Assembly: GCA_013151235.1 (NCBI GenBank)
Contig: JAADIO010000039.1
Location: 1-52,232, forward strand
From: Deltaproteobacteria bacterium
GTDB lineage: Bacteria > CG2-30-53-67
Direction of reading: 5' to 3'
Length of the DNA stretch: 52,232 nucleotides
This document shows, in pieces, positions 4,164 through 20,470 of the stretch. The notes below the pieces were generated by a model, which saw only the letters and a program-made list of their open reading frames with translations, searched no databases and was not told the origin of the DNA. The translations under genes and the position numbers were made by a program. Position 1 is the stretch's first letter, and each line of letters begins with the position of its first letter.

Positions 4164-4179
4164 AGGCATGTGCTTTGCA
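4164..4179 (+). promoter_or_regulatory. Sigma-54 promoter of the sox operon
   Basis: AGGCATGTGCTTTGCA has GG (4165-4166) and GC (4177-4178) separated by 10 bases. The predicted transcript start is near 4190, only two bases before the best start codon of the first gene. That would make this gene nearly leaderless and is a weak point of the call. Confidence 0.55.
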
Positions 4180-4191
4180 TATTCCCTCTTT

Positions 4192-4623
4192 ATGAAATGC
4201 TCTCATTTGATTGCTCTTATCGTGTTGGTGATGTCGTCCTTGGTAATGACCTCGGGTGTTTTTGCCGAGGCTCCGATCAAGATGCTTTTTTTCTATCAGA
4301 ATGGATGCCGCTGGTGTATGCAGATGGAAGAAATCCTTCATGAGCCGGATATGGAGGGTCTTCTTTCACGACGTATACAGGTGATCCGGATTAATGTTCA
4401 GGGGCGGGAAAAAACTTCTGTTCTTGGAAAGGAGGGGAGGGATCTGGCACAGGAGTTTCACGTTTATGGAACCCCCACAATCATCCTGGTCGGAGGTGGA
4501 GAGAAAGAACTTCTAAGAATTCCGGGTGCTCTGTCGAAGAAGGATTTTCTGGACCTTGTCTGTCGATATCTTCCGGATATGGGGAAGAAGACCGGTTGTG
4601 GGAAAAAAAACGGGACATTATAG
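4192..4623 (+). CDS. Periplasmic thioredoxin-fold protein of the sox operon (SoxW/SoxS-like)
   Basis: A 143-residue exported thioredoxin-like protein. Residues 1-25 form a signal peptide; the redox motif CRWC is at 39-42, and YGTPT carries the cis-proline opposite the active site. In Sox systems such proteins keep the SoxY cysteine reduced, so the same role is likely here. An in-frame ATG at 4168 falls inside the sigma-54 promoter motif and would spoil the signal peptide, so 4192 is preferred, although no good ribosome binding site precedes it. It is the first gene of the soxXYZAB operon. Confidence 0.75.
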   Translation: MKCSHLIALIVLVMSSLVMTSGVFAEAPIKMLFFYQNGCRWCMQMEEILHEPDMEGLLSRRIQVIRINVQGREKTSVLGKEGRDLAQEFHVYGTPTIILVGGGEKELLRIPGALSKKDFLDLVCRYLPDMGKKTGCGKKNGTL

Positions 4624-4673: not shown

Positions 4674-5060
4674 ATGGATGTAAGGGAGAAGGTTTTGTTC
4701 AAGGGGTTTTTCGGGGTGTTGGCAGGAGTCGTGATCCTCTCGGTCATCTTCGCAGCGCCGATTTGGGCTCATGCCGGGAATGCCGGGAACGGAGAGAAGA
4801 TTGTAAAGACCCGGAAGCTGGGAAACTGTATTTCCTGCCATTACCTTCCCGGTGTTGAATCGCCGGGGGATATCGGACCGAGCCTGGTGGATGTGATGCG
4901 GGGATTTACGAAGGCGGACCGCAAGGTAGTTAGACAGTGGGTCCGGGATGCCCGGAGATTCAATCCCGACACGATTATGCCGCCTTTTGGTCCCAACAAG
5001 CTGTTGACGCCTGAACAGATTGATGATGTGGTTGAATATCTTTTCACCTTGAAAAAATAG
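4674..5060 (+). CDS. soxX: SoxX, monoheme c-type cytochrome subunit
   Basis: A 128-residue exported cytochrome. An N-terminal hydrophobic segment (about residues 10-32) ends in a signal-peptidase-like site. The heme motif CISCH is at residues 52-56 and the probable methionine ligand is in MPPFGPNKLL. SoxX pairs with SoxA to attach thiosulfate oxidatively to the SoxY cysteine. AAGGAG precedes the ATG at good spacing. It lies directly before soxY in the usual soxXYZAB order. Size and motifs match the family. Confidence 0.9.
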   Translation: MDVREKVLFKGFFGVLAGVVILSVIFAAPIWAHAGNAGNGEKIVKTRKLGNCISCHYLPGVESPGDIGPSLVDVMRGFTKADRKVVRQWVRDARRFNPDTIMPPFGPNKLLTPEQIDDVVEYLFTLKK

Positions 5061-5144
5061 CTGTGGAAGAATGAGGGGGGGAGGACGAGTTGCGTCCAAA
5101 ACTCAGGAACATTCACAATCTTTAAACGAGTAAGGAGATCAGCA

Positions 5145-5669
5145 ATGAAAGAAAAGGGTCAAACGTTGTCGAGAAGAGAATTCCTGACGAAAACCGGCTT
5201 TGCATCGGTTGCTCTTCTTACGGTCGGCACTCTTGGTTCCGTCATTCCCGTCCGTAAGGAAAGTCTTGCCTCTTGGATCGCTCCGCGTGATGCTGCAGCG
5301 ATGGCGTTGAAAGATGTCAACGAGGAACTGAAGGCAACCTTTGGGAACCGGAAGATCGAGCTGTCCCATGTGACCATGAAGGCCCCCATTATTGCGGAAA
5401 ACGGCGGCGTGGTACCAATCAACATTTCTTCAGATCTGCCGATGAAGCCGGGGAACTATGTAAAGAAGATTTATGTCTATGTGGATAAAAATTATGATCC
5501 CTATGTCGGTAGTGTCGATCTGACTCCGGCGAATGGGAAGGCCGCCTTTTCACTCCGGATCAAGATGCGGAAGACCTCTCAGGTGCGTGCGATCCTGGAG
5601 ACGAGTCAGGGTAAGCTTTATGCTGCGGTGAAGACCGTTAAGGTAACGATCGGTGGGTGTGGCGGTTGA
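5145..5669 (+). CDS. soxY: SoxY, sulfur-carrier subunit
   Basis: A 174-residue carrier protein. It begins with a twin-arginine signal (SRREFL followed by a hydrophobic stretch), as expected for SoxY exported with SoxZ. The defining C-terminal swinging arm GGCGG is intact, with Cys172 as the point where thiosulfate is bound. TAAGGAG precedes the ATG. The neighbouring SoxZ lacks a signal peptide and would be carried out with SoxY. The family assignment is firm. Confidence 0.95.
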   Translation: MKEKGQTLSRREFLTKTGFASVALLTVGTLGSVIPVRKESLASWIAPRDAAAMALKDVNEELKATFGNRKIELSHVTMKAPIIAENGGVVPINISSDLPMKPGNYVKKIYVYVDKNYDPYVGSVDLTPANGKAAFSLRIKMRKTSQVRAILETSQGKLYAAVKTVKVTIGGCGG

Positions 5670-5758
5670 TTTTCCATTCCCTCATCGGAGGATTGTCACG
5701 GGCTGCAGGAACGACTATAAACCATCGTTGAAATGAGAAAGAAATAAGGAGAATAACA

Positions 5759-6094
5759 ATGCCTAAAGGAGTGGGAAAGATCAAAATCAGATTGCCCAGA
5801 ACCGTGAAAAGAGGCCAGGTGATTGCAGTGAAGGCGCTGATTACGCATCCCATGGAGACGGGGTTCAGGAAAAACAAGAAGACCAAGAAAAAGATTCCGG
5901 CTTATTATATCAATGATGTGAGCGTTTTTTACGGGGGCCGACTCGTCACGCATTCGGACTGGACGATTGCCGTCAGCACGAATCCTTTCATCACCTTCTA
6001 TCTGAAAGCGGACAAGACGGCGCCGTTGAAGATTGTCTGGAAGGATAACAAAGGCGGGGTTTTTGAGAAGACCGTACAGATTATACCCCGGTAG
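5759..6094 (+). CDS. soxZ: SoxZ, partner of the sulfur carrier
   Basis: A 111-residue beta-sandwich protein without a signal peptide, directly after soxY. Family features are the opening VGKIKIRLP, the segment ALITHPMETGFR, and ending strands rich in threonine and lysine (KIVWKDNKGGVFEKTVQI). SoxZ forms the SoxYZ heterodimer that carries the sulfur substrate through the cycle. AAGGAG precedes the ATG. Confidence 0.95.
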   Translation: MPKGVGKIKIRLPRTVKRGQVIAVKALITHPMETGFRKNKKTKKKIPAYYINDVSVFYGGRLVTHSDWTIAVSTNPFITFYLKADKTAPLKIVWKDNKGGVFEKTVQIIPR

Positions 6095-6143
6095 ATTGTG
6101 TGTCCGAATATTCCTATCCAACTGAGTGGGAGGTAATGGGAAA

Positions 6144-7001
6144 ATGCAAAATAAGATATCGATTCTGTTGAATATGATGGCCGTCTTTACCGGAGTCGTT
6201 CTGGTTCTGGGAATTCTGAATTCCTGTGCAGGCACCCGGGAAGCAACACACTCCGGTGGTACGGTTGTCAAAGAGTTTACACCGAGCATGTCTTTCGAAG
6301 AGTATCAGAAACGTTATAATGAGTACTACGGGGATGCAACTGCGCAGATGGCCGAGGAGGGAAATCCGGCGGAATTTCTCCTGGATGACGGCAAGGATCT
6401 TGCTAATACCGTGGCCGGGACCAAAGGGAAGTCGTGTGCAAGCTGTCATGGAAAGGATGCTGTAAAGCTGAAAGGGGTGGCCGCGACCTTCCCGAAGTAC
6501 AATGCCGATCTCAAAGGAATTATGACTCTTCCCCTACAGATTAATCTTTGCCGGAAGAATGCGATGGGCGCCGAGCCCCTGAAATACGAATCCTATGATC
6601 AACTTTCTCTGACCATGTATATCCGGTCCCTCTCCAACGGGATGCCGATTCATGTTTCTATCGACGGCCCGGCCCGTCCTTTTTATGAAAAGGGCAAGGC
6701 CTTTTATTACAAGCGGCAGGGGCAGTGGAATTTCAGCTGTGCCATCTGTCATGTTAAATATGCCGGTTACCGGGCGCGGGCGAACCTGCTCTCGAATAAC
6801 AAACACCATGTTGATCACTGGCCCTGCTATCGGCTCAAATGGGGCAAAACCGGGTCTTTGCATAGGCGGTTTCGGGGCTGTATGAAGAACATGCGTGCCA
6901 AACCGCTGGCCTATCAGAGCGAAGACTATCGGAACATGGAACTCTATCTGACCCACATTGCCAACGGAGAGCCGATCCAGGTGCCCGGGATGAGAATGTA
7001 A
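6144..7001 (+). CDS. soxA: SoxA, diheme c-type cytochrome subunit
   Basis: A 285-residue cytochrome that with SoxX joins thiosulfate to SoxY. Two heme motifs are seen, CASCH (98-102) and CAICH (199-203). Cysteines 136 and 246 are in the positions where SoxA uses cysteine as distal heme ligand; the second lies in the characteristic GCMKNMRA segment. The ATG at 6144 is chosen over a GTG at 6126 because GGAGGT sits nine bases before it. The N-terminal hydrophobic segment ends in LNSC, a possible lipobox, so the protein may be lipid-anchored, which would be unusual for SoxA. Confidence 0.92.
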   Translation: MQNKISILLNMMAVFTGVVLVLGILNSCAGTREATHSGGTVVKEFTPSMSFEEYQKRYNEYYGDATAQMAEEGNPAEFLLDDGKDLANTVAGTKGKSCASCHGKDAVKLKGVAATFPKYNADLKGIMTLPLQINLCRKNAMGAEPLKYESYDQLSLTMYIRSLSNGMPIHVSIDGPARPFYEKGKAFYYKRQGQWNFSCAICHVKYAGYRARANLLSNNKHHVDHWPCYRLKWGKTGSLHRRFRGCMKNMRAKPLAYQSEDYRNMELYLTHIANGEPIQVPGMRM

Positions 7002-7062
7002 GGTATCATGGGGGGAGTCCGCCGCAATCAACCGGGGATAGGATTTTCAGAAGGAGTGAATA

Positions 7063-8721
7063 ATGCGTTTGACAAGACGGGATTTTATGCAGATGGCCGG
7101 ACTTGCGGTCGGCTCCGCCTGGCTGACTCCGTCGGCGCTCGCCCGCAAATTGCGGCCGGAGAATCTTCTTAGATTCACGCCCAAAGGGGACCTCACTATC
7201 CTGCATACTACGGACAGTCATGCACAACTGGTCCCGATCTATTATCGGGAACCGGATGCTAATATCGGCGTCGGAGCTGCGGAAGGCAAGCCACCTCATC
7301 TGTGCGGCAAGGAATTTCTCAGGTATTACGGCCTGAAGCCGGACAGCCTTGAGGCCTATGCCTACACCAGTGACGATTATATCGCCCTTGCGAAGGAGTT
7401 TGGGAAAATGGGGGGATATGCCCACCTGATGACGCTGATCCGGAAGATTCGGGCGGAGCGGTCGGGCAAGGTCCTCTACATCGATACCGGGGACACCCTG
7501 CAGGGATCGGCGACGAGTCTCTGGACCCGCGGCGAAGATATGGTCCGTGTCCTGAACCAGATGGGATGTGAAGCGTTGGCCGGGCATTGGGAATTTACCT
7601 ATGGTGAAGAACGGGTCCTGGAACTGGTCAAGATGATGAACTTTCCCTTCCTTGCACAGAATGTGCATGATGCCACATGGGGTGATCAGATCTTCAAACC
7701 CTATACGATCAAGTCCGTCAACGGTCTTTCCGTGGCGCTGATCGGGCAGGCCTTTCCCTACACACCGATCGCTAATCCGAGGCGGTTTATTCCAAACTGG
7801 TCTTTCGGGATTCGGGAGGAGAACATGCAGTCCGTTGTGAACGAGGTTCGGGCCAAGAAGGTCGATCTCGTCGTGGTGCTTTCCCACAACGGGATGGATG
7901 TGGACCAGAAAATGGTCAGCCGGGTCAAGGGAATTGACGTGATCCTGGGAGGGCATACGCATGATGGTGTTCCGAAGCCGGTGGTGGTTGGGAACACGCT
8001 GGTTATCGGATCAGGATGTTACGGGAAGTTTCTCTCCCGGCTGGATCTCGATGTAAAAGGGAAAAAGATTGTCGATTATTCTTATCGGCTGATTCCCGTG
8101 ATGTCGGAGATGATTGATCCGGACCCGGAGATGGAACAGTTGATCCGGAAGATCCGGCGGCCCTATCAGAAAAAACTCGGGGAAGTTGTCTGCGAGACGG
8201 AGAGTCTGCTCTACCGCCGCGGGAATCTGGACGGCAGTTTTGACGAGCTGATCTGTGATGCCTTGCTGGATCATTACGATGTTGATTTTGCCCTTTCTCC
8301 CGGCTTTCGCTGGGGGCGTACGGTTCTGCCCGGTCCGGTAACAGCGGAAGATGTCTATTCGCAGACGGCATTGACCTATCCGAACACCTATAAAGCAAAG
8401 ATCAGTGGAAAAACACTGAAGGCGGTTCTGGAAGACATTACCGATAATATTTACAACCCCGATCCCTATCGTCAGCAGGGGGGGGATATGGTCCGGAGCA
8501 AAGGGCTCGAATTCAGTGTGATCCTCGCGGGGACCATGGGGAACCGTGTGCATAATATCAAGGTTCGGGGCAGGGACGTGAAACCGGATGACCAGTTTAC
8601 CTTTTCCGGTTGGGCCTCCATGGCCGAACAGCCGGGGCCGCCTGTTTACGATATTGTCCTGAACTATGCACGAAAAAAGAGAAAGGTCCGGGTGAAGCTG
8701 GATCGGCCGAAGTTGATCTGA
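7063..8721 (+). CDS. soxB: SoxB, thiosulfohydrolase
   Basis: A 552-residue dimanganese hydrolase of the 5'-nucleotidase superfamily that releases sulfate from SoxY-bound thiosulfonate. A twin-arginine signal (TRRDFMQMAG) is present. Metal-site motifs are in order: TTDSH with Asp51 and His53, AGHWEFTYG (His175), SHNGMD (His275) and GGHTHDG (His298 and His300). The C-terminal nucleotidase domain is complete. It is the last sox gene before a strong terminator. No soxC or soxD follows, so sulfane sulfur left on SoxY must be handled by another route. Confidence 0.96.
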   Translation: MRLTRRDFMQMAGLAVGSAWLTPSALARKLRPENLLRFTPKGDLTILHTTDSHAQLVPIYYREPDANIGVGAAEGKPPHLCGKEFLRYYGLKPDSLEAYAYTSDDYIALAKEFGKMGGYAHLMTLIRKIRAERSGKVLYIDTGDTLQGSATSLWTRGEDMVRVLNQMGCEALAGHWEFTYGEERVLELVKMMNFPFLAQNVHDATWGDQIFKPYTIKSVNGLSVALIGQAFPYTPIANPRRFIPNWSFGIREENMQSVVNEVRAKKVDLVVVLSHNGMDVDQKMVSRVKGIDVILGGHTHDGVPKPVVVGNTLVIGSGCYGKFLSRLDLDVKGKKIVDYSYRLIPVMSEMIDPDPEMEQLIRKIRRPYQKKLGEVVCETESLLYRRGNLDGSFDELICDALLDHYDVDFALSPGFRWGRTVLPGPVTAEDVYSQTALTYPNTYKAKISGKTLKAVLEDITDNIYNPDPYRQQGGDMVRSKGLEFSVILAGTMGNRVHNIKVRGRDVKPDDQFTFSGWASMAEQPGPPVYDIVLNYARKKRKVRVKLDRPKLI

Positions 8722-8931: not shown

Positions 8932-8981
8932 AGAATGAGCCGCAAGTTGCTTTGAAAATCTTTCCCGAAGGGAACCGTCCC

Positions 8982-10532
8982 ATGAAGCAGGCAATTTCTT
9001 GCAATGCTTCAATTTTCTGGCTGTTGTTCAGTATTCTCTTCCCGCTGCCGGTATATGCCGTATCGGCTGGTTCCCATGCCGCTTTGCGAATGATCGTCAT
9101 CCCGATGAGACCGCCTTCCCGGATGTACAGGGATTTCCTGCCTTTGAAACATTATCTGGAGAAAAAACTGGATCAGCCGATCGATCTGGATGTTGCGCGA
9201 AAGAATTCTGAAATTGCCCAACTCTTCGAAAAAAAAGAGATCGATATCGCCTTCGTTTGTCCTACCCTCTATTGTGATCTGACGCGGGCGGTCTCCGTGG
9301 TTCCTCTGGTGAAACTGCGGATTAACGGGAGTGATCAGTATCGGAGCGTCCTGGTGGTCCGGAAAGATTCTCCGATTTATCGAACAGCGGATCTTTATGA
9401 TCGTACACTGGTCTATGGGAGGTATTACTGTCCCGGTTCGGGGCTTCTGCCGAGGATCATGTTCAAACGGGTCGGTTTGTCCGAGAATGATTTTCTGGAA
9501 GTGGTCAATCTCGGGAATGACGAGAGCGCCCTCCTGGCCGTGATGGCCCGGATGTTCGACGTCACCGGTGTGCCGGAGATGGCCGTGAGTCTCCTGGAAG
9601 AGAAAAACCTCCGTATCCTCCGTTATTCGGATCCGATACCGCAGTATCTTTTCGTGGCGCGCAACGGCATGGATGAGAAGTTTATTCAAAAGTTGAAAGA
9701 GGAAATGCTCGGCTTAAACCATGATGCGGACAAGCAGGCCATCATCGGCGGCATCGAAAAAGGAGTGGATGGATTTTCGGAGGCGAAAGATTCCGATTAC
9801 GACATTGTTCGTGTGCTGATTGAAAGTCTGGACGGGGGGGCGGTTGGATCCGCATTTTCCAAAGGGGAACATACCCTTGTCGTAGAGCCGCTCTATTATG
9901 ATGCGGATCTTTTCCGTCGGCTGAAACCGTTTCTCTCGAGATTGCGATCGGAAACGGGCTGGAATTATCATCTTCGTATTCCGGAGAGTATCAAGGCATT
10001 CCTGAAAGATAAAGAGGAGGGAAAAGGGGACTTCTACCTTCAGGAAGCCGGACTTTTCTCCCAATTCGGGACTTCCCGGGAAGAATCGATCGGCTCGTTG
10101 AGTCTTGTGCCGAAGGAGGCGAATCGTGCTGTGATTGTTGTACCCGGAAGAGGTGCTGTGAAGAGGTTGAAGGACCTGCGGGGGAAAACGGTTGGAGTCC
10201 CTTCACGGTTTTCGGAAGGCGGTTTTCTGGCTCAGACGCGTTGGTTAAAGAATCAGGGTATTCCGCAGGATTCCATCCGGGTCAAGGTCCTGGGAACCTG
10301 TGAGAATGTCTTGATGAATGTCTATCTCGGGAAGGTGGATGCCGGTTTCGTGACGCTTGATACGTTTCAGCGTTTGGAAAAAGACCTCCAGCCGAAACGT
10401 GTCGTGATCCTTGGTGAGACCCCTCCCCTCGGTGATTGGGTGATTACCGCTCGCAAAAATGTTCCTGACGTGATCAGGAAGAAAGTTGGGAAGATCCTTG
10501 AAGAAGAGGTTTTTCGCTCCCCGCGGAACTGA
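8982..10532 (+). CDS. Tandem PhnD-like periplasmic substrate-binding protein
   Basis: A 516-residue exported protein with a signal peptide (residues 1 to about 23). Two PhnD/phosphonate-binding-type domains follow in tandem, roughly 30-260 and 285-510. The first shows the DIAFVCPTLY segment and the second KTVGVPSRFSEGG and KVDAGFVTLDTFQ. No transporter genes are near. Instead the stop codon is immediately followed by a histidine kinase gene. Kinases that sense tetrathionate and thiosulfate (TtrS, ThsS) carry PhnD-type sensor domains in the same polypeptide. Here the domain appears to be a separate protein, and I infer that it presents thiosulfate or a related anion to the kinase. ATG 8982 is preferred to a TTG at 8952. 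Confidence 0.75.
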   Translation: MKQAISCNASIFWLLFSILFPLPVYAVSAGSHAALRMIVIPMRPPSRMYRDFLPLKHYLEKKLDQPIDLDVARKNSEIAQLFEKKEIDIAFVCPTLYCDLTRAVSVVPLVKLRINGSDQYRSVLVVRKDSPIYRTADLYDRTLVYGRYYCPGSGLLPRIMFKRVGLSENDFLEVVNLGNDESALLAVMARMFDVTGVPEMAVSLLEEKNLRILRYSDPIPQYLFVARNGMDEKFIQKLKEEMLGLNHDADKQAIIGGIEKGVDGFSEAKDSDYDIVRVLIESLDGGAVGSAFSKGEHTLVVEPLYYDADLFRRLKPFLSRLRSETGWNYHLRIPESIKAFLKDKEEGKGDFYLQEAGLFSQFGTSREESIGSLSLVPKEANRAVIVVPGRGAVKRLKDLRGKTVGVPSRFSEGGFLAQTRWLKNQGIPQDSIRVKVLGTCENVLMNVYLGKVDAGFVTLDTFQRLEKDLQPKRVVILGETPPLGDWVITARKNVPDVIRKKVGKILEEEVFRSPRN

Positions 10533-10538
10533 GTGGAC

Positions 10539-11987
10539 ATGAATCTGTTTCGGAAGCTTCACTACGGTACCAGTATTAAAACCAAGGGTGTGATCTATGT
10601 CATTGTATTGATCCTGGTGATTTTTCTGACTGTCAGTGTCCTGGTCATGTCAACGGCCAGAAAGAACCTTGTCGAACAGCTCGATCAATTTCACTGGAGC
10701 ATTGCCCGGAAAGTCTCTCTGACGGCTTCGGATGCCCTCTTGTCCCGTGACTACGGATTTCTGATGGAGCAGATCCGGCAGTTGAAGTCTTCCGGGGAGG
10801 TGCGGGGGATCCGGATTATTGATAATCGGCATGTGATCATTGCCTCGGATCAGGTTTCCGAAATCGGGACCTCGGATGCCGAGCTTGCGGAGTATTTAAA
10901 ACATCAGGGAGAGAAATATTGTGTCCCGGCAGAGAGTGGAGCGGATATTCTCATGCCGGTTGAGATCGAGAAGGATATTCTGGGGGCATTGAAGGTCAGT
11001 TTTGACTGGGATGCCGAGAGGAAACGCATTGATCAGGAGTTCGGACGAACCTTCCGTCAACTTCTTTACCTGGCATTGGTCATCTTTTTTCTCGGGACCG
11101 GCGGCGCCTTTATTGTTTCCCGGGCGTTGACTCGACCGATTATTGATCTTTCCAGAAAGATTGAAAAGTTTGATAAGGAGATCTACCCTGAAAACGGTTC
11201 CTTGAGTGCCGTCTCTTATAAAGACGAAAGTCTGCAGCTTCAGGATGCCTTTACACGGATGGTCGAGAATCTGAGAAAATATCTGAAAGAATATAAAAGA
11301 GTATCTGAGGAGCGGGAAAAGCTGACCTGCATGGCTGCCATCGGACAGATGTCGGCCCAGATCGCGCATGAGACTCGTAACAGTCTCTACGCAATCCGTG
11401 GGGCCATCGCCGGTCTGGAAAAGGCGGACAGTCTTTCCGAAGCTCGTGAATATGTCGATGTGATTAAAGATGAAACCCGGGAAATGACCATGATGTCGGA
11501 CGATTTCCTCCGGTTTGCCAGAACCCCGGAACCGGTGCTGGTCCCCTGTTATGTCGATGATGTGGTGCAGCGTGTGGTGGAACTGCTCGATCCGGACATG
11601 GAGGATTCGAAGATTTCGGTCAAGAAGGTCGGGCAGCGGGTTCCGCAGGTCATGGCGGACCCCACCCTGCTGAAACAGGCCATTATGAATCTTTTCCTGA
11701 ACGCAATCCAGGCCATGGAACAGGGGGGAACGATTACCGTGGAATACCATCCGGCGGGCGATTTTGTTGAAACGGTCATTCAGGATGATGGACCGGGAAT
11801 TCCCGAGGAGATCAACTATAAAGTTTTCCAGCCGTTTTTTTCCACCAAGATCTATGGGACGGGGCTGGGCCTTCCCACGGTCTATAAATTGATTGTAGCC
11901 CAGAAGGGGGAGGTGGATCTGGAAGATTCGAAGGTCGGTGCACGGTTCATGATTAGATTGCCGATTGTGAAAACGAAGGGGGCATAA
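10539..11987 (+). CDS. Membrane sensor histidine kinase (NtrB-like)
   Basis: A 482-residue inner-membrane kinase. The first membrane segment is at about residues 17-40, followed by a periplasmic region of about 130 residues, a second membrane segment near 175-197, and then a HAMP linker. The phosphoacceptor is His277 in QIAHETRN. ATP-binding boxes are visible: the N box near 383, DDGPGIP, and GTGLGLPT near 440. The gene follows the PhnD-like protein without a gap and precedes the sigma-54 activator by five bases, so the three probably form one signalling unit. A GTG at 10533, overlapping the previous stop, is an alternative start. Confidence 0.88.
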   Translation: MNLFRKLHYGTSIKTKGVIYVIVLILVIFLTVSVLVMSTARKNLVEQLDQFHWSIARKVSLTASDALLSRDYGFLMEQIRQLKSSGEVRGIRIIDNRHVIIASDQVSEIGTSDAELAEYLKHQGEKYCVPAESGADILMPVEIEKDILGALKVSFDWDAERKRIDQEFGRTFRQLLYLALVIFFLGTGGAFIVSRALTRPIIDLSRKIEKFDKEIYPENGSLSAVSYKDESLQLQDAFTRMVENLRKYLKEYKRVSEEREKLTCMAAIGQMSAQIAHETRNSLYAIRGAIAGLEKADSLSEAREYVDVIKDETREMTMMSDDFLRFARTPEPVLVPCYVDDVVQRVVELLDPDMEDSKISVKKVGQRVPQVMADPTLLKQAIMNLFLNAIQAMEQGGTITVEYHPAGDFVETVIQDDGPGIPEEINYKVFQPFFSTKIYGTGLGLPTVYKLIVAQKGEVDLEDSKVGARFMIRLPIVKTKGA

Positions 11988-11992
11988 GCACC

Positions 11993-13354
11993 ATGCAGAA
12001 GATTCTGATCGTGGATGATGAAAGAAATATCCGGAAGGTCCTTTCCACCTATCTGAAAAAGGAGGGATTTGAGGTGGAGACTGCCCGAAATTACGAAGAA
12101 TCTCTTTCCAAGATCGGGGAGCAGAAGATTGATCTGGTCCTTACGGACATGCGGTTGCCGGGGCCCTCCGGGTTGCATCTGCTCCAATGGATCAAGAGAA
12201 ATCATACCTTTCTGCCGGTGATACTGATTACGGCTTTCGGGAGCATTGACAGTGCTGTGGAGGCGATGAAGAGCGGTGCGTCGAACTATCTCACGAAACC
12301 GATGGACATGGACGAGATGATGGCCATTATTCGCCATACCCTGATGAAATCGAAGGGGAGAAATACAGCAGATCAGGCAGAACAATCTGAGGAACGATTC
12401 GGGATTATCGGAAGGAGCGCCGCCATCAACGAAGTCATCTCCACGATCCAGGTTGTCAGTTCAAGCCGCGCGAATGTCCTGATCACGGGGGAATCGGGGA
12501 CAGGGAAGGAACTCGTGGCCGGGGCGATCCATGCCGCCTCTCCTCGCAAGGAACTCCCCTTTATTGCGATCAACTGTGCCGCCGTTCCTGCGGACCTGAT
12601 TGAAAACGAACTGTTCGGGCACGAAAGCGGCGCTTTTACCGGCGCCGTTTCCAGAGAGGCCGGCAAGATTGAGCTGGCCGACCGGGGCACCCTGTTTCTC
12701 GACGAAATCGGGGAGATGTCCCTTTCCATGCAGATCAAGCTTCTTCGTTTCATGCAGGAAAGGGTGTTTTTCAGGATCGGGGGAAAGAGCCAGATTGCGT
12801 CGGATTGCCGGATCATTGCCGCCACGAATCGTGACCTGGAAGAAGAGGTGAAAAAGGGGCGTTTCCGGGAGGATTTCTTCTATCGTCTGAACGTTATCCA
12901 GATCAGAATCCCTCCTCTCCGGGACCGGAAAGGGGATGTTCCCCTTCTCGTCAAGCACTTCCTGGATAAATACTCCGGGGAGAACAAGAAGTTTATCCGC
13001 GGAATAGATTCGGTGGCTCTTGATGCGCTCATCCAGTATGAGTGGCCTGGGAATATCCGGGAATTGCAGAACATTATCGAAAGGGGCGTGGTCTTGTCCC
13101 GCCACGATACCATTGCACTGGAAGATCTCCCCAATAAATTGAAGAATAATTTTTTGGAATCCGCCGGGGAGGAGACGCCGCCGGAGGACCAGGATCTCCT
13201 GGCGCTCTCCGGGATGACCCTCGCCGAGCTTGAACGGATTGCCGTTGTCAAATCCTTGAAAGTGGAGAACTGGAACCAGACCCGTGCAGCGAAGAGACTG
13301 GGTATCACACGTCGGCAGTTAAGGACAAAAATGGAGAAATACAAACTGCTGTGA
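11993..13354 (+). CDS. Sigma-54-dependent response regulator (NtrC family)
   Basis: A 453-residue three-domain activator. The receiver has its phosphorylatable Asp52 in LTDMRLPG. The AAA+ domain shows Walker A GESGTGKE, the sigma-54-contacting GAFTGA loop and LFLDEIGE. The C-terminal Fis-type helix-turn-helix spans NQTRAAKRLGITRRQL. It is encoded with its kinase between two operons that carry sigma-54 promoter motifs. It is therefore the natural candidate to activate the promoters at 3688, 4164 and 13523. The family is certain; the targets are inferred. Confidence 0.93.
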   Translation: MQKILIVDDERNIRKVLSTYLKKEGFEVETARNYEESLSKIGEQKIDLVLTDMRLPGPSGLHLLQWIKRNHTFLPVILITAFGSIDSAVEAMKSGASNYLTKPMDMDEMMAIIRHTLMKSKGRNTADQAEQSEERFGIIGRSAAINEVISTIQVVSSSRANVLITGESGTGKELVAGAIHAASPRKELPFIAINCAAVPADLIENELFGHESGAFTGAVSREAGKIELADRGTLFLDEIGEMSLSMQIKLLRFMQERVFFRIGGKSQIASDCRIIAATNRDLEEEVKKGRFREDFFYRLNVIQIRIPPLRDRKGDVPLLVKHFLDKYSGENKKFIRGIDSVALDALIQYEWPGNIRELQNIIERGVVLSRHDTIALEDLPNKLKNNFLESAGEETPPEDQDLLALSGMTLAELERIAVVKSLKVENWNQTRAAKRLGITRRQLRTKMEKYKLL

Positions 13355-13522: not shown

Positions 13523-13538
13523 AGGCATGATATATGCA
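13523..13538 (+). promoter_or_regulatory. Sigma-54 promoter of the permease operon
   Basis: AGGCATGATATATGCA has GG (13524-13525) and GC (13536-13537) separated by 10 bases. The predicted start near 13549 leaves a leader of about 56 bases to the permease ATG. It shares the AGGCATG opening with the motifs at 3688 and 4164. Confidence 0.65.
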
Positions 13539-13605: not shown

Positions 13606-14838
13606 ATGGCGAAGCAGAAGATTCGGGAATTCATAGTTATACTTCTGATTATTGCAGGATTTGTCGGGGTCTTGTACCTGATTTTCCGGACGCGCGGGTT
13701 TCTGACGCTTGATCCGGATAGTCTCTCCGACGAAGAAATCGCGTTGATCAAGGCCGCCATCCGAAACCATGTACTTTGGGCGGGATTGTTGATCGGAGGC
13801 GTCATGGGAGCGATTGTGCAGCGGTCGAAATTCTGTATTGCTGCGGCATGCCACAGTGTTGTTACGATCAAGGACCTGAGCCAGACCCGGGCGTATGCCA
13901 CGGCGCTGATCGTGGCGATCCTGGGGACCCAGATCCTCTACAGGACCGGGGAGGTGGATATTACTCGATGTATCTACATTGCATCCCCTGTGACATGGCT
14001 CAGTTTTATGGTCGGCGGATTTGTCTTCGGCGTCGGGATTGTTTACGCCGGTGGATGCGCCAGCAGAATTCTCGTTCGTGCGTCGGAAGGGAATTTAGGG
14101 GGACTGGTGAGTGTCATGGCTTTTATCTTTTCTTCCGGAGCGACTCTCTGGGGGATTCTTGCCCTGGTGCGGGTAGACTATTTCAATCAACTGACGTTGA
14201 ATCTGAAGACGCAATACATTCCGCATCTATTACAACAGTTCCCCTTCTGGGTGGTGATCCTGATTGTTGAAGTCTTGCTGTTTGTTTTTGTTTTGTCGGC
14301 TCCCAGGGATTCGGAGTGGTGGGGGATGCGCTGGCCGGTTGCCGGGGTTGCAATCGGGTTGACGGTTATTCTCGCCTGGTGGATCAACGGGGCCGCCTAT
14401 CGGGCAATCCCTTTTATCGATTCTTTTTCCTTTACCGGTCCGGATGATCCGACGCTCCTGCAGACCTGGCGTCCCAAAAGCCTGACTTTTGCGCTGGCGG
14501 ATGCCCAAACCTTCCGTTATATTATTATGTGGACGGGAGAAAAGATGAATTTTGGGATTGCCACCGTATTTGGCGTGATCGGAGGTGCGCTTTCGGCTGC
14601 AATGGTTACCGGGACGTTTCACTGGGTGGCTCCTCCCCTTCAGCAATTTAAATATAATCTCGTCGGAGGACTTCTGATGGGCTTCGGTGCGGTTCTGGCA
14701 TTGGGATGCAATATCGGGCAAGGGCTCAGCGGATTCTCCACGCTCTCTTTCGGCAGTATCCTGACGATGACCTTTATCCTCATCGGAGCGATTTCGGGCG
14801 CCAGGTTCATGAACTGGCAATTAATGAGGGAGGTCTAA
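13606..14838 (+). CDS. YeeE/YedE-family (TsuA-like) sulfur-compound permease
   Basis: A 410-residue polytopic inner-membrane protein with about nine hydrophobic segments. The three conserved cysteine motifs of the YeeE/TsuA thiosulfate transporter family are present: RSKFCIAAAC (Cys77), AGGCASRI (Cys151) and LALGCNIGQGLSG (Cys368). In characterised members these cysteines hand thiosulfate through the membrane. It is the first gene behind a sigma-54 promoter and is followed by TusA and redox proteins. Import of thiosulfate or sulfane sulfur is thus the likely job. A central soluble-looking insertion near residues 265-290 is present. Confidence 0.85.
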   Translation: MAKQKIREFIVILLIIAGFVGVLYLIFRTRGFLTLDPDSLSDEEIALIKAAIRNHVLWAGLLIGGVMGAIVQRSKFCIAAACHSVVTIKDLSQTRAYATALIVAILGTQILYRTGEVDITRCIYIASPVTWLSFMVGGFVFGVGIVYAGGCASRILVRASEGNLGGLVSVMAFIFSSGATLWGILALVRVDYFNQLTLNLKTQYIPHLLQQFPFWVVILIVEVLLFVFVLSAPRDSEWWGMRWPVAGVAIGLTVILAWWINGAAYRAIPFIDSFSFTGPDDPTLLQTWRPKSLTFALADAQTFRYIIMWTGEKMNFGIATVFGVIGGALSAAMVTGTFHWVAPPLQQFKYNLVGGLLMGFGAVLALGCNIGQGLSGFSTLSFGSILTMTFILIGAISGARFMNWQLMREV

Positions 14839-14840
14839 AG

Positions 14841-15368
14841 GTGAGTCCCCTTCGCAGAGTCTTTTTCGGGATTCTATTCCTCCTTTTGGGAACACAATGT
14901 GCTTTTTCTCAAGAGACAACGGCCCACCGCTCGTCGCCCTGTGCAAACCCCGTTGTTCTTTATTCCGTGCAAGGGGATTATGATCAGGTTTGGGGAGATC
15001 TGAAGATGGCGCTGAACGACCGGGGACTTGTGGTTTCCAGTGTTTCCCATGTGGGAGAGATGATCGATCGGACCGGCAAGGCCCTCGGCAGGACCCGGAA
15101 GGTTTTCGGAAAAGCCAATGTGATGGAATTCTGCAGCGCGGTCATTTCCCGTGACATGCTTGAACAGAATGCTCACCTGATTGCATTCTGTCCCTATCAG
15201 ATCATGGTCTATTCCCTGCCGGATGACGACCATAAGATCTTTATATCCTACCGCCGGCCGATCTGGAACGGTCCCGCGGACCGGAAGGTTCTGGAGAAAG
15301 TGGAAAAGCTGGTGAGCGGGATCATCCGAGATGTCGTAGACTTGTACGGAGGTGAATCGGAATTATGA
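14841..15368 (+). CDS. Exported DUF302-domain protein
   Basis: A 175-residue protein with a signal peptide (about residues 1-22) and a DUF302-type domain covering most of the rest. The start is a GTG at 14841 preceded by GGGAGG; longer in-frame upstream reading lies inside the permease gene. DUF302 has no settled biochemical function, though it is often found near sulfur-oxidation or heavy-metal genes. Its two-base gap from the permease and four-base overlap with the next gene show translational coupling. A role in periplasmic sulfur handling is only suggested by context. Confidence 0.75.
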   Translation: MSPLRRVFFGILFLLLGTQCAFSQETTAHRSSPCANPVVLYSVQGDYDQVWGDLKMALNDRGLVVSSVSHVGEMIDRTGKALGRTRKVFGKANVMEFCSAVISRDMLEQNAHLIAFCPYQIMVYSLPDDDHKIFISYRRPIWNGPADRKVLEKVEKLVSGIIRDVVDLYGGESEL

Positions 15369-15952
15369 TTGCCTTCCTGAAAGATTTCTCCTCCCTCCGC
15401 CGGTTGTCTTACCGGCCATTGGTCGTGATGCTGGTTTTGCTCTTTGCCGGGGTTGCCCGGGCGGAAGGCCCTTCGACTTCTCAAAGCGCGGACGGTTTTT
15501 TCGATCTTTTTATGGGAGATTTAGGTGAGGAGCTTCAGACAGCTCGGGAAGAGGGGAAAAAGGGAATATTGCTTTTTTTTGAGATTGATTCCTGTCCATT
15601 CTGCATTCGTATGAAACGGCGACTTCTGAGCCGTGCAGACGTTCAGGACATTTTCGGCAAGGCGTTCCTCCGGTTTTCCGTCGATGTAGAGGGGGATGTG
15701 GAGATCACCGATTTCCGGGGGAAAACCATGCGCGAGAAGGATTTTGCGCTGAATCAGCGTGTACGGGGTACGCCAACGATGATCTTCTATAACCTGAAGG
15801 GGAAAGAGGTTACCCGGTATGTCGGTGCGATTGATCGGTTGGATAACCTGTTGTTGCTGGAAGAATATGTGACGGGAGAGGTCTATCGTAAGATGCCCTT
15901 TATTCGGTATAAGCGTCTCCACCGGAACACACAAAACAGCCATGTGCCGTAG
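15365..15952 (+). CDS. Periplasmic thioredoxin-fold protein
   Basis: A 195-residue exported thioredoxin-like protein of the SoxW/DsbD-C-terminal type. The signal peptide covers about residues 1-33; the active site is CPFC (77-80) after a LLFFEIDS strand, and RGTPT holds the cis-proline. It overlaps both neighbours, so it belongs to the permease operon. It is a second such protein besides the one at 4192. The likely role is reducing disulfides or persulfides in the periplasm. Confidence 0.8.
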   Translation: MIAFLKDFSSLRRLSYRPLVVMLVLLFAGVARAEGPSTSQSADGFFDLFMGDLGEELQTAREEGKKGILLFFEIDSCPFCIRMKRRLLSRADVQDIFGKAFLRFSVDVEGDVEITDFRGKTMREKDFALNQRVRGTPTMIFYNLKGKEVTRYVGAIDRLDNLLLLEEYVTGEVYRKMPFIRYKRLHRNTQNSHVP

Positions 15953-17300
15953 GGATAGTGACGGAGCAAAAAGACTCTGCTTTGCTTTTTTCTGGATGCT
16001 GGTCTGTTGTTTCCCCTGTCTGTGTACGGCGGACCCGATTCGTACGCCTCTCCCCGAGCCTTTGACCCTGCAAAGGGCGCTGGCGTTGGCCGATGAGCCG
16101 GATCCGGCCCTTGCCGAGGCCCAGGCGGATCTGGAAGGTGCGGAGGCGGATCGTCGTTTGATTGAATCGACTTTGGGAATTCAGGCCTCCTTTTCCGGAA
16201 ATCTCCGCTGGATCAAGCCGGATCCCCTCGCTCCGGATCCTTCACAAAACGATTCGAGTCTTCATTTCAATATCAGAAAACGTCTCTATGATTTTGGTCG
16301 AAGCCGGTACGGTCTTTCCGCTGTTCGTTCAGAGATTGAAGCCTCTGAATGGCTTTATGAAGATGCCCGGCAGCAGCGGCGCATTGAGATCATGGTTCGT
16401 TTTCTTGAGGTTCTTCTCGCGGATATGGAATATGACCGGGACAGTGAGGCCGCCGCCGTGGCCTATGCGCGTTACGACCGGCTACGGGACCGGAATGAAC
16501 TGGGGCAGGTCTCGGACATTGATCTGCAACAGGCTGCAAGCGAGTATCGTAAGGCACGGCGGGATCGCGCCGTCAGTCAGGCGCCCCAGCGAACCCGCCG
16601 TGCCCTCCTTGCGGAGGTCCTCAATCGTCCGGGAGAGCTTCCGGTGACCCTGGTGGAACCGGAATTCGCGGGGCTGGACCGGGATCCGCCGCCGGTGGAT
16701 GACCTGATCCGGGAGGCTTTGAAAATGAATCCCGTCCTGCGTGCCCTTCGGTCTCAGGTGCAGGCCGTTCAGGAAAAACTGAAGGAGGATCGGGCCGGGC
16801 GAAACCCGATCCTTACGGCGGAGATTCATCGGGCTTTTTATAAACGACGTTTTGGTTCCCGGGACCAGTGGCGGGCGGACATGCTGTTGGAGGTCCCTCT
16901 CCTGACGGGGGGGACGGTCGAAGCGAACGAGGCCGAACACCTGGCCGAGCGGCATCGACTGGAGGCGCGTCTTGACCGGCGAAGCCGGGAAGTGCGACAG
17001 GCGGTGCTGGAGAGATGGGAGGAGATCCGGACACTCCGGCAAGGACTTGTGGAAGCCCGAGCGAGAGTGCAATACCGTGATCTCTATCTCGATCGGAGCC
17101 GCTCTCTCTATGAACTGGAAGTCAAGACCGACCTCGGGGATGCCATGACGCAGAATGTGGCGGCGTTCCTCCATGAAACACGAACAAAATTTGAATTGGC
17201 GCTGGCGTGGGCCAGACTGGCTGCCTTGACCGGAAAGTCGGCCGGTTTTTTGAAGGCCGAATCCGGGTCGGCGTCGCCTCATAAGAATCGAAAAGATTGA
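15942..17300 (+). CDS. TolC-family outer-membrane channel protein
   Basis: A 452-residue exported protein with a signal peptide (about residues 1-30). Two long helical repeats follow, with the heptad-like, Arg/Glu/Ala-rich character of TolC proteins. The strand segments LHFNIRKRLYDFGRSR and RADMLLEVPLLTGG mark the two barrel halves. It would form the outer-membrane exit duct of an efflux or secretion machine. It overlaps the preceding gene and the adaptor gene that follows. No inner-membrane pump gene is in this operon. Confidence 0.82.
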   Translation: MCRRDSDGAKRLCFAFFWMLVCCFPCLCTADPIRTPLPEPLTLQRALALADEPDPALAEAQADLEGAEADRRLIESTLGIQASFSGNLRWIKPDPLAPDPSQNDSSLHFNIRKRLYDFGRSRYGLSAVRSEIEASEWLYEDARQQRRIEIMVRFLEVLLADMEYDRDSEAAAVAYARYDRLRDRNELGQVSDIDLQQAASEYRKARRDRAVSQAPQRTRRALLAEVLNRPGELPVTLVEPEFAGLDRDPPPVDDLIREALKMNPVLRALRSQVQAVQEKLKEDRAGRNPILTAEIHRAFYKRRFGSRDQWRADMLLEVPLLTGGTVEANEAEHLAERHRLEARLDRRSREVRQAVLERWEEIRTLRQGLVEARARVQYRDLYLDRSRSLYELEVKTDLGDAMTQNVAAFLHETRTKFELALAWARLAALTGKSAGFLKAESGSASPHKNRKD

Positions 17301-18118
17301 TGGGTGAATTCCTGCTTGAGAAAATTCTGTTCCGCCGGAAGAGGGTTGCGGGATGTATCTTTTGCCTTCTGCTGGGAAGCATCCTCCCGGCATGGGCGGT
17401 GGAGTACCCCTCGGTCTTGAAATGGGATAGAAGGGTGGAACTCAGCACTCCTGTTTCAGGTATTGTTTCCGAAGTTGCCGTACACGAAGGGGAACGGGTG
17501 CGTAAAGGTCAACTTTTGCTGCAACTGGATGACCGTCCCTTTCGGTTGGAAATCGATCGGGCTCGATCGGTTGTCAAGCGACTTGTCGTTGTGCTTGATG
17601 AGGCACGGCGGGAGAAGGACCGGGCCGAAGAACTCTATGCCCGCACTGTCCTGTCCGACCATGAATTACAATTGGCCCGGATCGGATGGACGATTGCCGA
17701 CGCAAAACTGGAATCAGCAAAGAGCGATCTTGCCCGGGCGAAACTGGATCTCGAATACAGTACGGTCCGGGCGCCGTTTGACGGAAGGATCCTGGAGCGG
17801 CATGCGGAGGTGGGGCAAACCCTCGTGCAGCGTTTCCGGTCGACGCCGCTCATTGTATTGGCTGCATCGGACCGAATGTGTGCCCAGGCCCTGATGACGC
17901 AGGAACAGTTCTCAAACGTTACCCCCGGCCAGAAAGTGATGGTGAAGGTGGAAGGGCATCTTTATCCCGGGACGGTGCGGTCCATTGGCTTAACACCGGT
18001 GTCTGCAGAGGTTCCCGGGGCGCTTTATCCTGTGGATATTGTCTTCCGCATCGATCCGGTGATCACGTTTCGGGCGGGACAGCCGGCCACGATTCTTTTC
18101 TCCGGCGATTCCTTATAG
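17300..18118 (+). CDS. HlyD/RND-type periplasmic adaptor protein
   Basis: A 272-residue adaptor of a tripartite efflux system. After an N-terminal hydrophobic segment (about residues 14-35) come a split biotinyl-lipoyl domain (TPVSGIVSEVAVHEGERVRKGQLLL, partner half YSTVRAPFDGRI), a helical hairpin between them, and a beta-barrel domain. The ATG at 17300 overlaps the TolC-family stop. The protein is short for the family and lacks an obvious membrane-proximal domain. It pairs with the channel at 15942, but the energy-coupling transporter must be encoded elsewhere or be absent. Confidence 0.8.
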   Translation: MGEFLLEKILFRRKRVAGCIFCLLLGSILPAWAVEYPSVLKWDRRVELSTPVSGIVSEVAVHEGERVRKGQLLLQLDDRPFRLEIDRARSVVKRLVVVLDEARREKDRAEELYARTVLSDHELQLARIGWTIADAKLESAKSDLARAKLDLEYSTVRAPFDGRILERHAEVGQTLVQRFRSTPLIVLAASDRMCAQALMTQEQFSNVTPGQKVMVKVEGHLYPGTVRSIGLTPVSAEVPGALYPVDIVFRIDPVITFRAGQPATILFSGDSL

Positions 18119-18149: not shown

Positions 18150-18398
18150 GTGGATCCTTCAACTCCGGAACAGGAGATTGACCGTACATTGGATATCCGG
18201 GGGTTTGTCTGCCCTCTGCCGGTTTTGAAGACCAAGCAGGCGTTGGATCGGATGAAACCAGGGGAGATTTTGAAGGTGATGGCAACGGATCCGGATGCCG
18301 GGGCGGATATTTCACGGCTCTTCAAGCGTCTCGGGCATTCGGTTCTGAACGTCCGGGAGGAGGGAGAGGGGATTACCGTTCTGATCCGTAAAAAATAG
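18150..18398 (+). CDS. tusA: TusA-family sulfurtransferase
   Basis: An 82-residue cytoplasmic sulfur carrier. The hallmark CPLPVLKTKQAL is present with the active cysteine at residue 21, followed by MKPGEILKVMATD and the typical ending strands. TusA passes persulfide sulfur between proteins. As the last gene of the permease operon it probably receives sulfur brought in by the YeeE-type transporter. The start is a GTG. No dsr or sHdr genes are in the window to name the next acceptor. Confidence 0.88.
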   Translation: MDPSTPEQEIDRTLDIRGFVCPLPVLKTKQALDRMKPGEILKVMATDPDAGADISRLFKRLGHSVLNVREEGEGITVLIRKK

Positions 18399-18583: not shown

Positions 18584-20470
18584 TTATCCCCTGAGCGATT
18601 CCAGTACTTCCCAACGCTCATAGACCCCGGTCAGTTCATTGTCCAACGCCTCAAGTCTTGCCCTGGTTTCAGCCACCTTTTTGCCGCTTGATCGATAAAA
18701 GGCGGGATCCGCCAGACGGGTATGGATCTCTTCCCGTTCCGATTCAAGCGCCTCGATGCGCTCGGGAAGAGCTTCCAGCTCCTTTTGTTCCTTGAAGGTC
18801 AATTTCCGTTTTGAGGCCGAACGATCAGGGCGCCTGTCCTTTTTTTTCTCCTTGCCCGGAAGCACGGGAGCGGGCTCTTTTCTCTGTCTGAGCCAGTCGT
18901 CATAGCCGCCCACATATTCGTTCACACATCCTTCCCCTTCAAACACGAGCGTGCTGGTCACGACATTGTTGATGAATGCCCGGTCGTGGCTTACAAGAAG
19001 GACCGTTCCCGGGTAGTCCATCAGGAGTCCTTCAAGCAGATCCAGAGTCTCCATATCCAGATCGTTCGAGGGCTCATCGAGTACAAGCAGGTTTGACGGT
19101 TTCGTGAAAAGCTTGGCCAGCAACAGCCGGTTGCGCTCCCCTCCCGAGAGGACCTTCACCGGGCTCAGCGCACGCTCCGGAGGAAAAAGAAAATCCTGAA
19201 GATAACCGATCACATGACGCCGATTCCCGTAGAGGGTCACATAGTCGCTGCCGTCCGCCACATTATCCCGGACACTTTTTTCATCATTGAGGAGCGCCCG
19301 GTGCTGGTCGAGGTAGGCTGGTTGGAGTTTCGTGCCGTGCCGGATCGTCCCTTCCATCGGGATAAGTTGACCGAGCAATATCTTGAGCAACGTGGTCTTC
19401 CCCGCTCCGTTCGGTCCGATAATGCCGATCTTATCGCCGCGCAGGATCGTTGTTGAAAACCCCCGGATTGTATCAACCCCGCCATAGCTGTAACCCACGC
19501 CCTCCGCCTCAATTACGGTCCGCCCCGTCTGCTCCGCCTTCTGTATTTGCATCCGCACATTGCCGATTCCCTCGCGCCGCCCCGCCCGGATCCTGCGCAT
19601 TTCCTTGAGTGCGCGCACGCGGCCTTCATTGCGCGTCCTGCGCGCTTTCACCCCTTGCCGTATCCAGGCCTCCTCTGCAGCCAGCTTCTTGTCGAACTTG
19701 GCGTTTTCTGTGGCCTCCTCCGCCACTGCGGCCTCTTTGAGTTCCTGATAGATCTGATAATTTCCAGGCCAGTTCGTGAGGCGGCCGCGATCGAGGTCCA
19801 CGATCCGTGTCGCAAGCTTCCGGATCAACATTCGGTCGTGGGTGACAAACAGAAGTGCCCCGCCGAAAGAAAGCAGAAACTCCTCCAGCCACGCAATGGT
19901 ATCGATATCCAGATGATTCGTAGGCTCGTCCAGAAGCAAAAGGTCCGGCTCGCTGACCAAGGCCCGGGCAAGCAGGACCAGCCGCTTGCGGCCGCCGGAA
20001 AGCTCGGAGAACTCCGTATCGGCCGAAAGCTTAAGCCGCGAGAGCATCGTCTCGACGTGCGGTTCTATGTCCCAGCCGCCAGCCGCCTCCAACCGGTGCT
20101 GAACATTTTCAAAGGCGGTCATCAGCTTCTCGCTCTGATCCCGGCCCAGCCTGCCGCCCAGATTGTGATACTCGGCCAGCAGTTTTCCCTGCTTACCAAA
20201 CGCGTCCGCTACCACATCAAAAACGGTGCCGCAAAGCCCCCTTGGAACCTCCTGGGCAAGCCCGGTGATTGTCACCCCCTGCCGGAACACGATGCTGCCT
20301 TCATCCGGTTTGACTTCACGGGCGATCAGCCCCATAAGAGTCGATTTGCCTGTCCCGTTCCTCCCGACCAGGCAGACCCGTTCGCCCCGGTCGATAGAGA
20401 GATTAATACTCTCGAGAACGGGCAGCCCTCCAAAGCTGATTTTCACACCCTGCAAACTCACCAATGCCAT
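18584..20470 (-). CDS. uup: ABC-F family ATPase, Uup-like
   Basis: A 628-residue soluble protein with two ABC ATPase domains and no membrane segments. The first has Walker A GRNGTGKST and signature LSGGRKR; the second has GPNGAGKTT and LSGGERNR. Between them is the linker typical of ABC-F proteins, and the C-terminus (about 545-628) is a charged coiled coil as in Uup. ABC-F proteins act on ribosomes or on DNA/RNA junctions. It is convergent with tusA; the 185-base gap between them shows no strong terminator. Confidence 0.92.
   Translation of the reverse strand: MALVSLQGVKISFGGLPVLESINLSIDRGERVCLVGRNGTGKSTLMGLIAREVKPDEGSIVFRQGVTITGLAQEVPRGLCGTVFDVVADAFGKQGKLLAEYHNLGGRLGRDQSEKLMTAFENVQHRLEAAGGWDIEPHVETMLSRLKLSADTEFSELSGGRKRLVLLARALVSEPDLLLLDEPTNHLDIDTIAWLEEFLLSFGGALLFVTHDRMLIRKLATRIVDLDRGRLTNWPGNYQIYQELKEAAVAEEATENAKFDKKLAAEEAWIRQGVKARRTRNEGRVRALKEMRRIRAGRREGIGNVRMQIQKAEQTGRTVIEAEGVGYSYGGVDTIRGFSTTILRGDKIGIIGPNGAGKTTLLKILLGQLIPMEGTIRHGTKLQPAYLDQHRALLNDEKSVRDNVADGSDYVTLYGNRRHVIGYLQDFLFPPERALSPVKVLSGGERNRLLLAKLFTKPSNLLVLDEPSNDLDMETLDLLEGLLMDYPGTVLLVSHDRAFINNVVTSTLVFEGEGCVNEYVGGYDDWLRQRKEPAPVLPGKEKKKDRRPDRSASKRKLTFKEQKELEALPERIEALESEREEIHTRLADPAFYRSSGKKVAETRARLEALDNELTGVYERWEVLESLRG

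Follow-up and report, generated by a model that had tools for sequence, protein, structure and literature searches.

We examined contig JAADIO010000039.1 of the Deltaproteobacteria bacterium assembly GCA_013151235.1 (GTDB lineage CG2-30-53-67) over its whole length of 52,232 nucleotides, referred to below as the window. Its left half carries a soxXYZAB operon and its right half genes of the Wood-Ljungdahl pathway. Protein identities and tree tests show a cassette, made up of the sox genes together with a sensor and a sigma-54 regulator, to have moved between this lineage and the Desulfobulbia, whereas carbon monoxide dehydrogenase/acetyl-CoA synthase (CODH/ACS) follows the organism's own descent. 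As an explanation of the whole we favour, and consider rather probable, a thiosulfate-use cassette that feeds the dissimilatory sulfite reductase (Dsr) pathway of a Wood-Ljungdahl autotroph. Sox is usually taught as a system of aerobes or phototrophs and the Wood-Ljungdahl pathway as one of strict anaerobes.

The case for transfer lies in a conflict between gene histories. Window SoxB is 80-84% identical to its counterparts in Desulfobulbia and 69-76% to those in Nitrospirota, but this order is reversed for RpoB (56-60% and 63-65%, respectively). For CODH/ACS the values are 49-55% to Desulfobulbia, 62-64% to Nitrospirota and 88-94% to genomes of the same family. The bias of SoxB returns in the kinase (72% for Desulfobulbia against 52% for Nitrospirota) and the regulator (75% against 63%) of the cassette. 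The SoxB tree places the window and a locus from a second genome of the same genus (L001) as sister to Desulfobulbia, with a class-mate (G006) outside. Two arrangements were rejected by the approximately unbiased test: a grouping of Nitrospirota and the window's own class without Desulfobulbia (p=0.0013) and the own class as a single clade (p=0.016). The conflict between SoxB, in identities and tree, and RpoB and CODH/ACS therefore argues for a cassette that moved between phyla and for CODH/ACS genes that did not. As to direction, the Desulfobulbia may be the recipients, because in the SoxB tree they are nested in a grade formed by Nitrospirota and the own class; given this nesting, we do not claim that the present lineage received sox from Desulfobulbia. 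The tree conflict also shows that bacteria can acquire this trait from another phylum.

Sox gene calls were judged against the curated cut-offs of NCBIfam, which all five proteins exceed (Table 1). Residues 74-290 of SoxA match the solved structure 1h31, and SoxB matches structure 2wdc over most of its length. Together with the intact SoxY arm, the two haem sites of SoxA and the fold of SoxB, the five proteins identify a truncated Sox system of the Kelly-Friedrich type, with thiosulfate oxidation as its predicted activity. The soxCD genes are missing from the operon, and a SoxC model gave no match across the whole genome (SoxD was not searched for separately). A preliminary description of the window had claimed both the complete soxXYZAB set and the lack of soxCD, and on both points our results agree with it.

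The same holds for the CODH/ACS, formate dehydrogenase and methyl-branch genes it had placed in the other half: metVF, acsE, cdhD, acsC, acsB, cooS, formate dehydrogenase, fhs and acsV were all found there. Outside the window, folD was located on contig C42 by tblastn with E. coli FolD as the query. At the level of the genome the Wood-Ljungdahl set is complete (CODH/ACS, corrinoid iron-sulfur protein, methyltransferase, methylenetetrahydrofolate reductase, FolD, Fhs and formate dehydrogenase), and RuBisCO was not found in it. The alpha subunit of formate dehydrogenase is probably a selenoprotein, because its gene has a single in-frame TGA and the genome contains a tRNA-Sec gene.

The pairing of the two gene sets had been presented as odd, and this assessment does not stand. 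We delimited a SoxB clade of 18 distinct genomes, whose SoxB shares at least about 69% identity with that of the window or, within the window's own phylum, is over the cut-off; the clade spans this lineage, Desulfobulbia and Nitrospirota. CODH/ACS alpha/beta is present in 16 of these genomes, all but G006 and G066 (14 matches above the cut-off, two fragments), and in none of the five genomes outside the clade, while no member of the clade has a SoxC over the cut-off. Moreover, Sox without SoxCD has been published together with the Wood-Ljungdahl pathway for the Nitrospirota family 9FT-COMBO-42-15 (PMC11033732). Given its frequency in the clade and this report, the headline pairing was already known: the observation is correct and largely anticipated by published work. 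It follows from the clade, which links Sox and Wood-Ljungdahl as a rule, that soxB alone in a survey does not denote an aerobic Calvin-cycle sulfur oxidiser.

That the two sets lie side by side is a separate matter. Among the five closest relatives, four hold Wood-Ljungdahl genes without SoxB, and one class-mate has SoxB without CODH/ACS. We rejected a causal meaning of this position, since among the relatives each half also occurs on its own; it is not a conserved linkage.

Within the open PubMed Central papers, what the present analysis seems to add to published work is the conserved cassette together with its promoter and the history of its transfer. One gene order is common to Desulfobulbia, Nitrospirota and this lineage: a thioredoxin-like protein (Trx), soxX, Y, Z, A and B, a double PhnD-like protein, the kinase and the sigma-54 regulator. 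After the regulator, loci of the clade usually continue with genes for a transporter of the TsuA/YeeE-like type and for a DUF302 protein. In the window a second thioredoxin, TolC, a membrane fusion protein and TusA come next (Table 1), and in loci L010 and L015 TusA likewise lies after the DUF302 gene. No proteobacterial soxB locus in the comparison has the PhnD-like binding protein, and neither the kinase nor the regulator is present in nine such loci compared closely. Solved relatives of the double PhnD-like protein are PtxB, HtxB, PhnD and the arsenate sensor ArrX. With a PhnD-like protein, a histidine kinase and a response regulator in one run, the genes have the make-up of a PhnD-type three-component regulator, of which the double PhnD-like protein is likely the signal-binding part, for a putative ligand.

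Of 13 loci from three lineages, 12 have a promoter-like element of the -24/-12 type (TGGCAYG-N4-TTGCW) at a homologous site 5' of trx-sox, compared to 0.22 expected from shuffled sequences and one on the antisense strand. Also, six of ten loci have a sigma-54-like site scoring at least 10 ahead of tsuA (0.06 expected). In the window, the place of the trx-sox element makes the ATG at 4192 probably the true start of trx. Parallels exist in TspS/TspR of Acidithiobacillus caldus, a sigma-54 two-component system with a described role in sox control (PMC6335251), and in Shewanella ThsS (ThsS/ThsR), whose PhnD-like sensing domain detects thiosulfate (PMC5408782); because of them, the cassette may be thiosulfate-induced. 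TspS/TspR and ThsS/ThsR are two-component systems for oxyanions of sulfur or arsenic, as the cassette regulator probably is too, and so is ArrXSR, whose ArrX is a binding protein of the PhnD-like type encoded separately. Unlike in these three systems, the double PhnD-like gene of the window stands alone before the kinase and the sigma-54 activator, directly 3' of soxB. The conserved regulator and promoter offer a simple test of when such organisms use thiosulfate.

Upstream of the cassette, two further features were seen. A porin O/P-like protein is encoded at 2453-3526 on the reverse strand and has a homologue upstream of sox in locus L014 as well, and positions 1812-2248 hold a gene pair for a HicB-like antitoxin and a HicA toxin.

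The preliminary description had proposed to look for dsr genes, terminal oxidases and nitrate reductases, and the genome has all of these: two sets of dsrAB with a dsrL-like gene, dsrEFH, dsrC, dsrK, ccoN and napA. DsrE, F, H and C score over their cut-offs and adjoin dsrAB on contig C19. The DsrL-like protein 3' of dsrAB belongs to a generic NAD(P)-binding subfamily and did not match a DsrL model. DsrA of C19 is 61-66% identical to that of Thermodesulfovibrionia and Desulfobulbia (sulfate reducers), and DsrA of contig C16 is 48-51% identical to that of sulfur oxidisers and others, Gammaproteobacteria and Magnetospirillum among them. These identities suggest one DsrAB of reductive and one of oxidative type. 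Both types of DsrA occur in four relatives (G001-G004), and a fifth (G005) has only the reductive-like one among the matches listed. Plasmid and viral collections, in which an oxidative reference was sought, contained no DsrA match. An open reading frame of 80 amino acids between dsrB and dsrL on C19 looks DsrD-like by eye; as it matched neither a DsrD model nor a DsrD structure we rejected this candidate, the only place in the genome where DsrD was sought. Further genes comprise AprA, Sat, NapA, a cbb3-type CcoN (by Pfam model), a NorB-like protein and two hydrogenase large subunits; CydA was not found in the genome.

Several known systems come close to this combination. The truncated Sox systems of Allochromatium vinosum, Chlorobium and Thiobacillus denitrificans have the same five Sox proteins, lack SoxCD and pass the sulfane sulfur to Dsr. 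Our genome differs from this type by its Wood-Ljungdahl pathway, where theirs is the Calvin or reverse tricarboxylic acid cycle, by carrying dsrAB in two sets, of which one has reductive affinity, and by its own sigma-54 sensor-regulator genes. Family 9FT-COMBO-42-15 shares SoxXAYZB without SoxCD, reverse-type Dsr (rDsr) with DsrEFH and DsrL, a Wood-Ljungdahl CODH and nitrate reduction; it belongs to a different phylum-level lineage, one DsrAB of our genome is of reductive affinity, and the available sections of PMC11033732 do not mention a regulatory cassette. Strain M19, a cultured autotrophic member of the Desulfobulbales, likewise has SoxA, B, X, Y and Z, a full Dsr pathway, Apr and Sat (PMC12243485). 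It differs in having a complete reductive pathway, QmoABC and DsrMKJOP included, and in that disproportionation of elemental sulfur (S0) was shown by growth; its announcement names neither a carbon-fixation pathway nor a sox regulator (PMC12243485). For candidate phylum CG2-30-53-67, represented by few genomes, two dsrAB copies (reductive and oxidative), each with DsrL, and dsrE are reported, a content like that found here; Sox is not mentioned in the available parts of these papers (PMC10591310, PMC11406059). This dsr content and the small size of its phylum make membership of our genome likely.

In the working that we propose, the PhnD-like protein would bind thiosulfate or a close sulfur oxyanion and the kinase would phosphorylate the activator, as their domains suggest; the activator would then start transcription from the sigma-54 promoters ahead of trx-sox and tsuA, in line with the conservation of these sites. 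SoxAX would couple thiosulfate to SoxYZ and SoxB would free the sulfone sulfur as sulfate, a chemistry that is established for Sox systems. Without SoxCD, the sulfane sulfur would enter the cytoplasm and pass via TusA, DsrEFH and DsrC to DsrAB-DsrL, and then to AprAB (AprB being putative) and Sat. Electrons may go to nitrate through Nap or to low oxygen through the cbb3-type oxidase, for both of which genes are present; alternatively, part of the sulfur may be reduced, which would amount to disproportionation. Finally, carbon would be fixed via the Wood-Ljungdahl pathway, whose carbon-fixing direction we infer (gene content as such is neutral on direction).

A sulfur-oxidising or disproportionating Wood-Ljungdahl autotroph, as proposed earlier, is thus the most plausible reading, with dsr, aprA, sat, napA and ccoN present and SoxC, CydA and RuBisCO absent. 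Some observations weigh against the working outlined above. The TsuA-like protein scores below the NCBIfam equivalog cut-offs for TsuA, and TusA is part of the cassette in only some relatives. The trx-sox element of the window is among the weaker copies: it starts with AGG instead of TGG and lies very near the start codon. Also, because DsrAB of C19 resembles that of sulfate reducers, net flux could be reductive.

This last point leads to the strongest competing reading, in which the organism lives mainly by disproportionation of sulfur or thiosulfate: Sox would free sulfate from the sulfone sulfur, a reductive-type Dsr would turn the sulfane sulfur into sulfide and external acceptors would be little used. 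Strain M19 provides a precedent with its Sox proteins and complete Dsr, although growth was shown on S0 and a role of Sox was not demonstrated there (PMC12243485). The reductive affinity of the C19 DsrAB and the presence of AprA and Sat fit this lifestyle, as does the lack of a COX1 match in four Sox-clade Desulfobulbia (G061, G064, G065 and G073). CcoN, NapA and the NorB-like protein, however, would provide for external acceptors, and DsrEFH beside dsrAB is commonly a marker of oxidation. We regard predominant disproportionation as unlikely, though it deserves serious consideration.

Somewhat less probable still is an organism that is mainly a sulfate reducer, running the Wood-Ljungdahl pathway oxidatively or using H2 or formate with sulfate, with Sox dealing with thiosulfate as a sideline or for detoxification. 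The C19 DsrAB, AprA and Sat would serve it, two hydrogenases and formate dehydrogenase could supply the electrons, and gene content leaves the direction of CODH/ACS free. Against it stand a second dsrAB-dsrL set nearer to those of sulfur oxidisers, dsrEFH, and a dedicated, conserved sox regulator in a cassette kept as a unit across phyla.

Going beyond our favoured explanation, it might tentatively be argued that the cassette serves Dsr-bearing anaerobes with the acetyl-CoA pathway as a mobile module for the entry of thiosulfate, acquired as a unit in three phyla, and that this organism can choose the direction of sulfur flow by means of its two DsrAB-L sets; we would give this somewhat less than an even chance. 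If true, the module lets lineages resembling sulfate reducers use thiosulfate as an electron donor or as a substrate for disproportionation.

All of these readings take the window as the DNA of one organism, whereas the preliminary description had named a chimera, joined between about 18.4 and 21.5 kb, as what would refute it. Contig C39, which the window covers from end to end, is one of 73 in a genome assembly of 2.62 Mb (completeness 99.25%, contamination 0%). GC content is 0.51-0.52 in the left (sox) half and about 0.57 in the right; at the join, where an uup-like gene and a dispersed repeat are located, it climbs from about 0.515 to 0.567. Tetranucleotide usage of both halves nevertheless fits the remaining genome (correlations of 0.977 and 0.982). 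An independent metagenome-assembled genome of the same genus (G001, Dive96_bin10.193, the record of L001) has a contig of 19,166 bases (C93) that is colinear with the window between about 6.28 kb and 24.0 kb, through soxA, the regulator, the transporter and the efflux genes to folE and metVF; uup (18584-20470) is the sole gene unmatched at its place. With the shared signature, this crossing of the junction on a single contig, and a G001 that itself encodes both SoxB and CODH/ACS, a union of two organisms is so improbable that we reject it. As part of our favoured explanation, and with the same fair probability, the contig comes from a single uncultured bacterium whose lineage, a small one at the level of a phylum, is related to Nitrospirota: among the genomes compared its phylum is represented by eight, which fall into two families of a single class, and it is close to Nitrospirota by RpoB.

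The dispersed repeat near the junction measures about 138 bases (21065-21202), has complementary ends and gave 133 BLAST pieces across the genome. Partial copies lie at 29417-29627 and 52141-52194, and the sister genome is also rich in copies, often at contig ends.

Table 1. Features of the window and of the dsr loci elsewhere in the genome, with the matches on which the assignments are based.
Feature	Position	Strand	Evidence
sigma-54 (-24/-12) promoter-like element AGGCATGTGCTTTGCA, ahead of trx-sox	4164..4179	+	score 10.5/12
trx, secreted thioredoxin-like protein, first gene of operon	4168..4623	+	Pfam Thioredoxin_2 46 bits; kept ahead of sox in clade
soxX, c-type cytochrome	4674..5060	+	TIGR04485 80 bits, cut-off 61
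soxY, sulfur carrier, Tat-type signal, intact C-terminal GGCGG arm	5145..5669	+	TIGR04488 142 bits, cut-off 125
soxZ	5759..6094	+	TIGR04490 107 bits, cut-off 76
soxA, dihaem cytochrome, two CxxCH haem sites	6126..7001	+	TIGR04484 247 bits, cut-off 110
soxB, thiosulfohydrolase	7063..8721	+	TIGR04486 795 bits, cut-off 550
periplasmic binding protein, two PhnD-like stretches	8952..10532	+	Pfam Phosphonate-bd 269 bits over two stretches
sensor histidine kinase	10533..11987	+	HisKA, HATPase_c
NtrC-type response regulator (receiver, sigma-54 activator, Fis helix-turn-helix)	11993..13354	+	Response_reg, Sigma54_activat, HTH_8
weaker sigma-54-like element ahead of tsuA	13523..13538	+	score 9.5/12
TsuA/YeeE-like sulfur or thiosulfate transporter	13606..14838	+	Pfam Sulf_transp 201 bits
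DUF302-domain protein	14706..15368	+	DUF302 27.6 bits, cut-off 23; kept after tsuA in clade
second thioredoxin-like protein	15365..15952	+	Pfam Thioredoxin_2 64.5 bits
TolC-like outer membrane protein	15942..17300	+	OEP 99 bits
HlyD/RND-type membrane fusion protein	17297..18118	+	TIGR01730 over cut-off; HlyD_3
TusA sulfur carrier	18150..18398	+	Pfam TusA 86 bits
uup-like ABC-F ATPase, between the halves	18584..20470	-	ABC_ATPase_Uup 829 bits, cut-off 900
folE, first gene past the junction	21538..22101	+	over cut-off
metV-like (DUF5981) and metF, methylenetetrahydrofolate reductase	22141..23824	+	profile matches
acsE-like methyltransferase	28561..29397	+	231-233 bits, under curated cut-offs 259 and 370
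cdhD and acsC/cdhE, corrinoid iron-sulfur protein subunits	29591..31983	+	over cut-offs
acsB/cdhC, acetyl-CoA synthase	32076..34352	+	NF040764 1007 bits, cut-off 800
cooS/acsA, CO dehydrogenase catalytic subunit	34428..36425	+	TIGR01702 617 bits, cut-off 478
NuoE- and NuoF-like electron-transfer subunits of formate dehydrogenase	36422..38910	+	profile matches
formate dehydrogenase alpha, in-frame TGA at 40013	38975..41668	+	halves match consecutive parts of TIGR01591
fhs, formate-tetrahydrofolate ligase	42204..43967	+	NF010032 1133 bits, cut-off 938
acsV, corrinoid activation protein	45426..47369	+	NF040756 721 bits, cut-off 800
first dsr cluster, dsrK-C-E-F-H-HEAT-A-B-smallORF-L	L183 6354-15087 = contig C19 26354-35087		NfnAB-like proteins next
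second dsrA, dsrB and DsrL-like protein	L178 7799-11979 = contig C16 27799-31979		

Two other genes of the right half deserve mention. The gene thyX (24787-26559), for an FAD-dependent thymidylate synthase, is interrupted in frame by an intein that carries an HNH endonuclease domain, and a HipA-family protein (HipA_C, Couple_hipA) is encoded on the reverse strand at the right end of the window (50394-51719).

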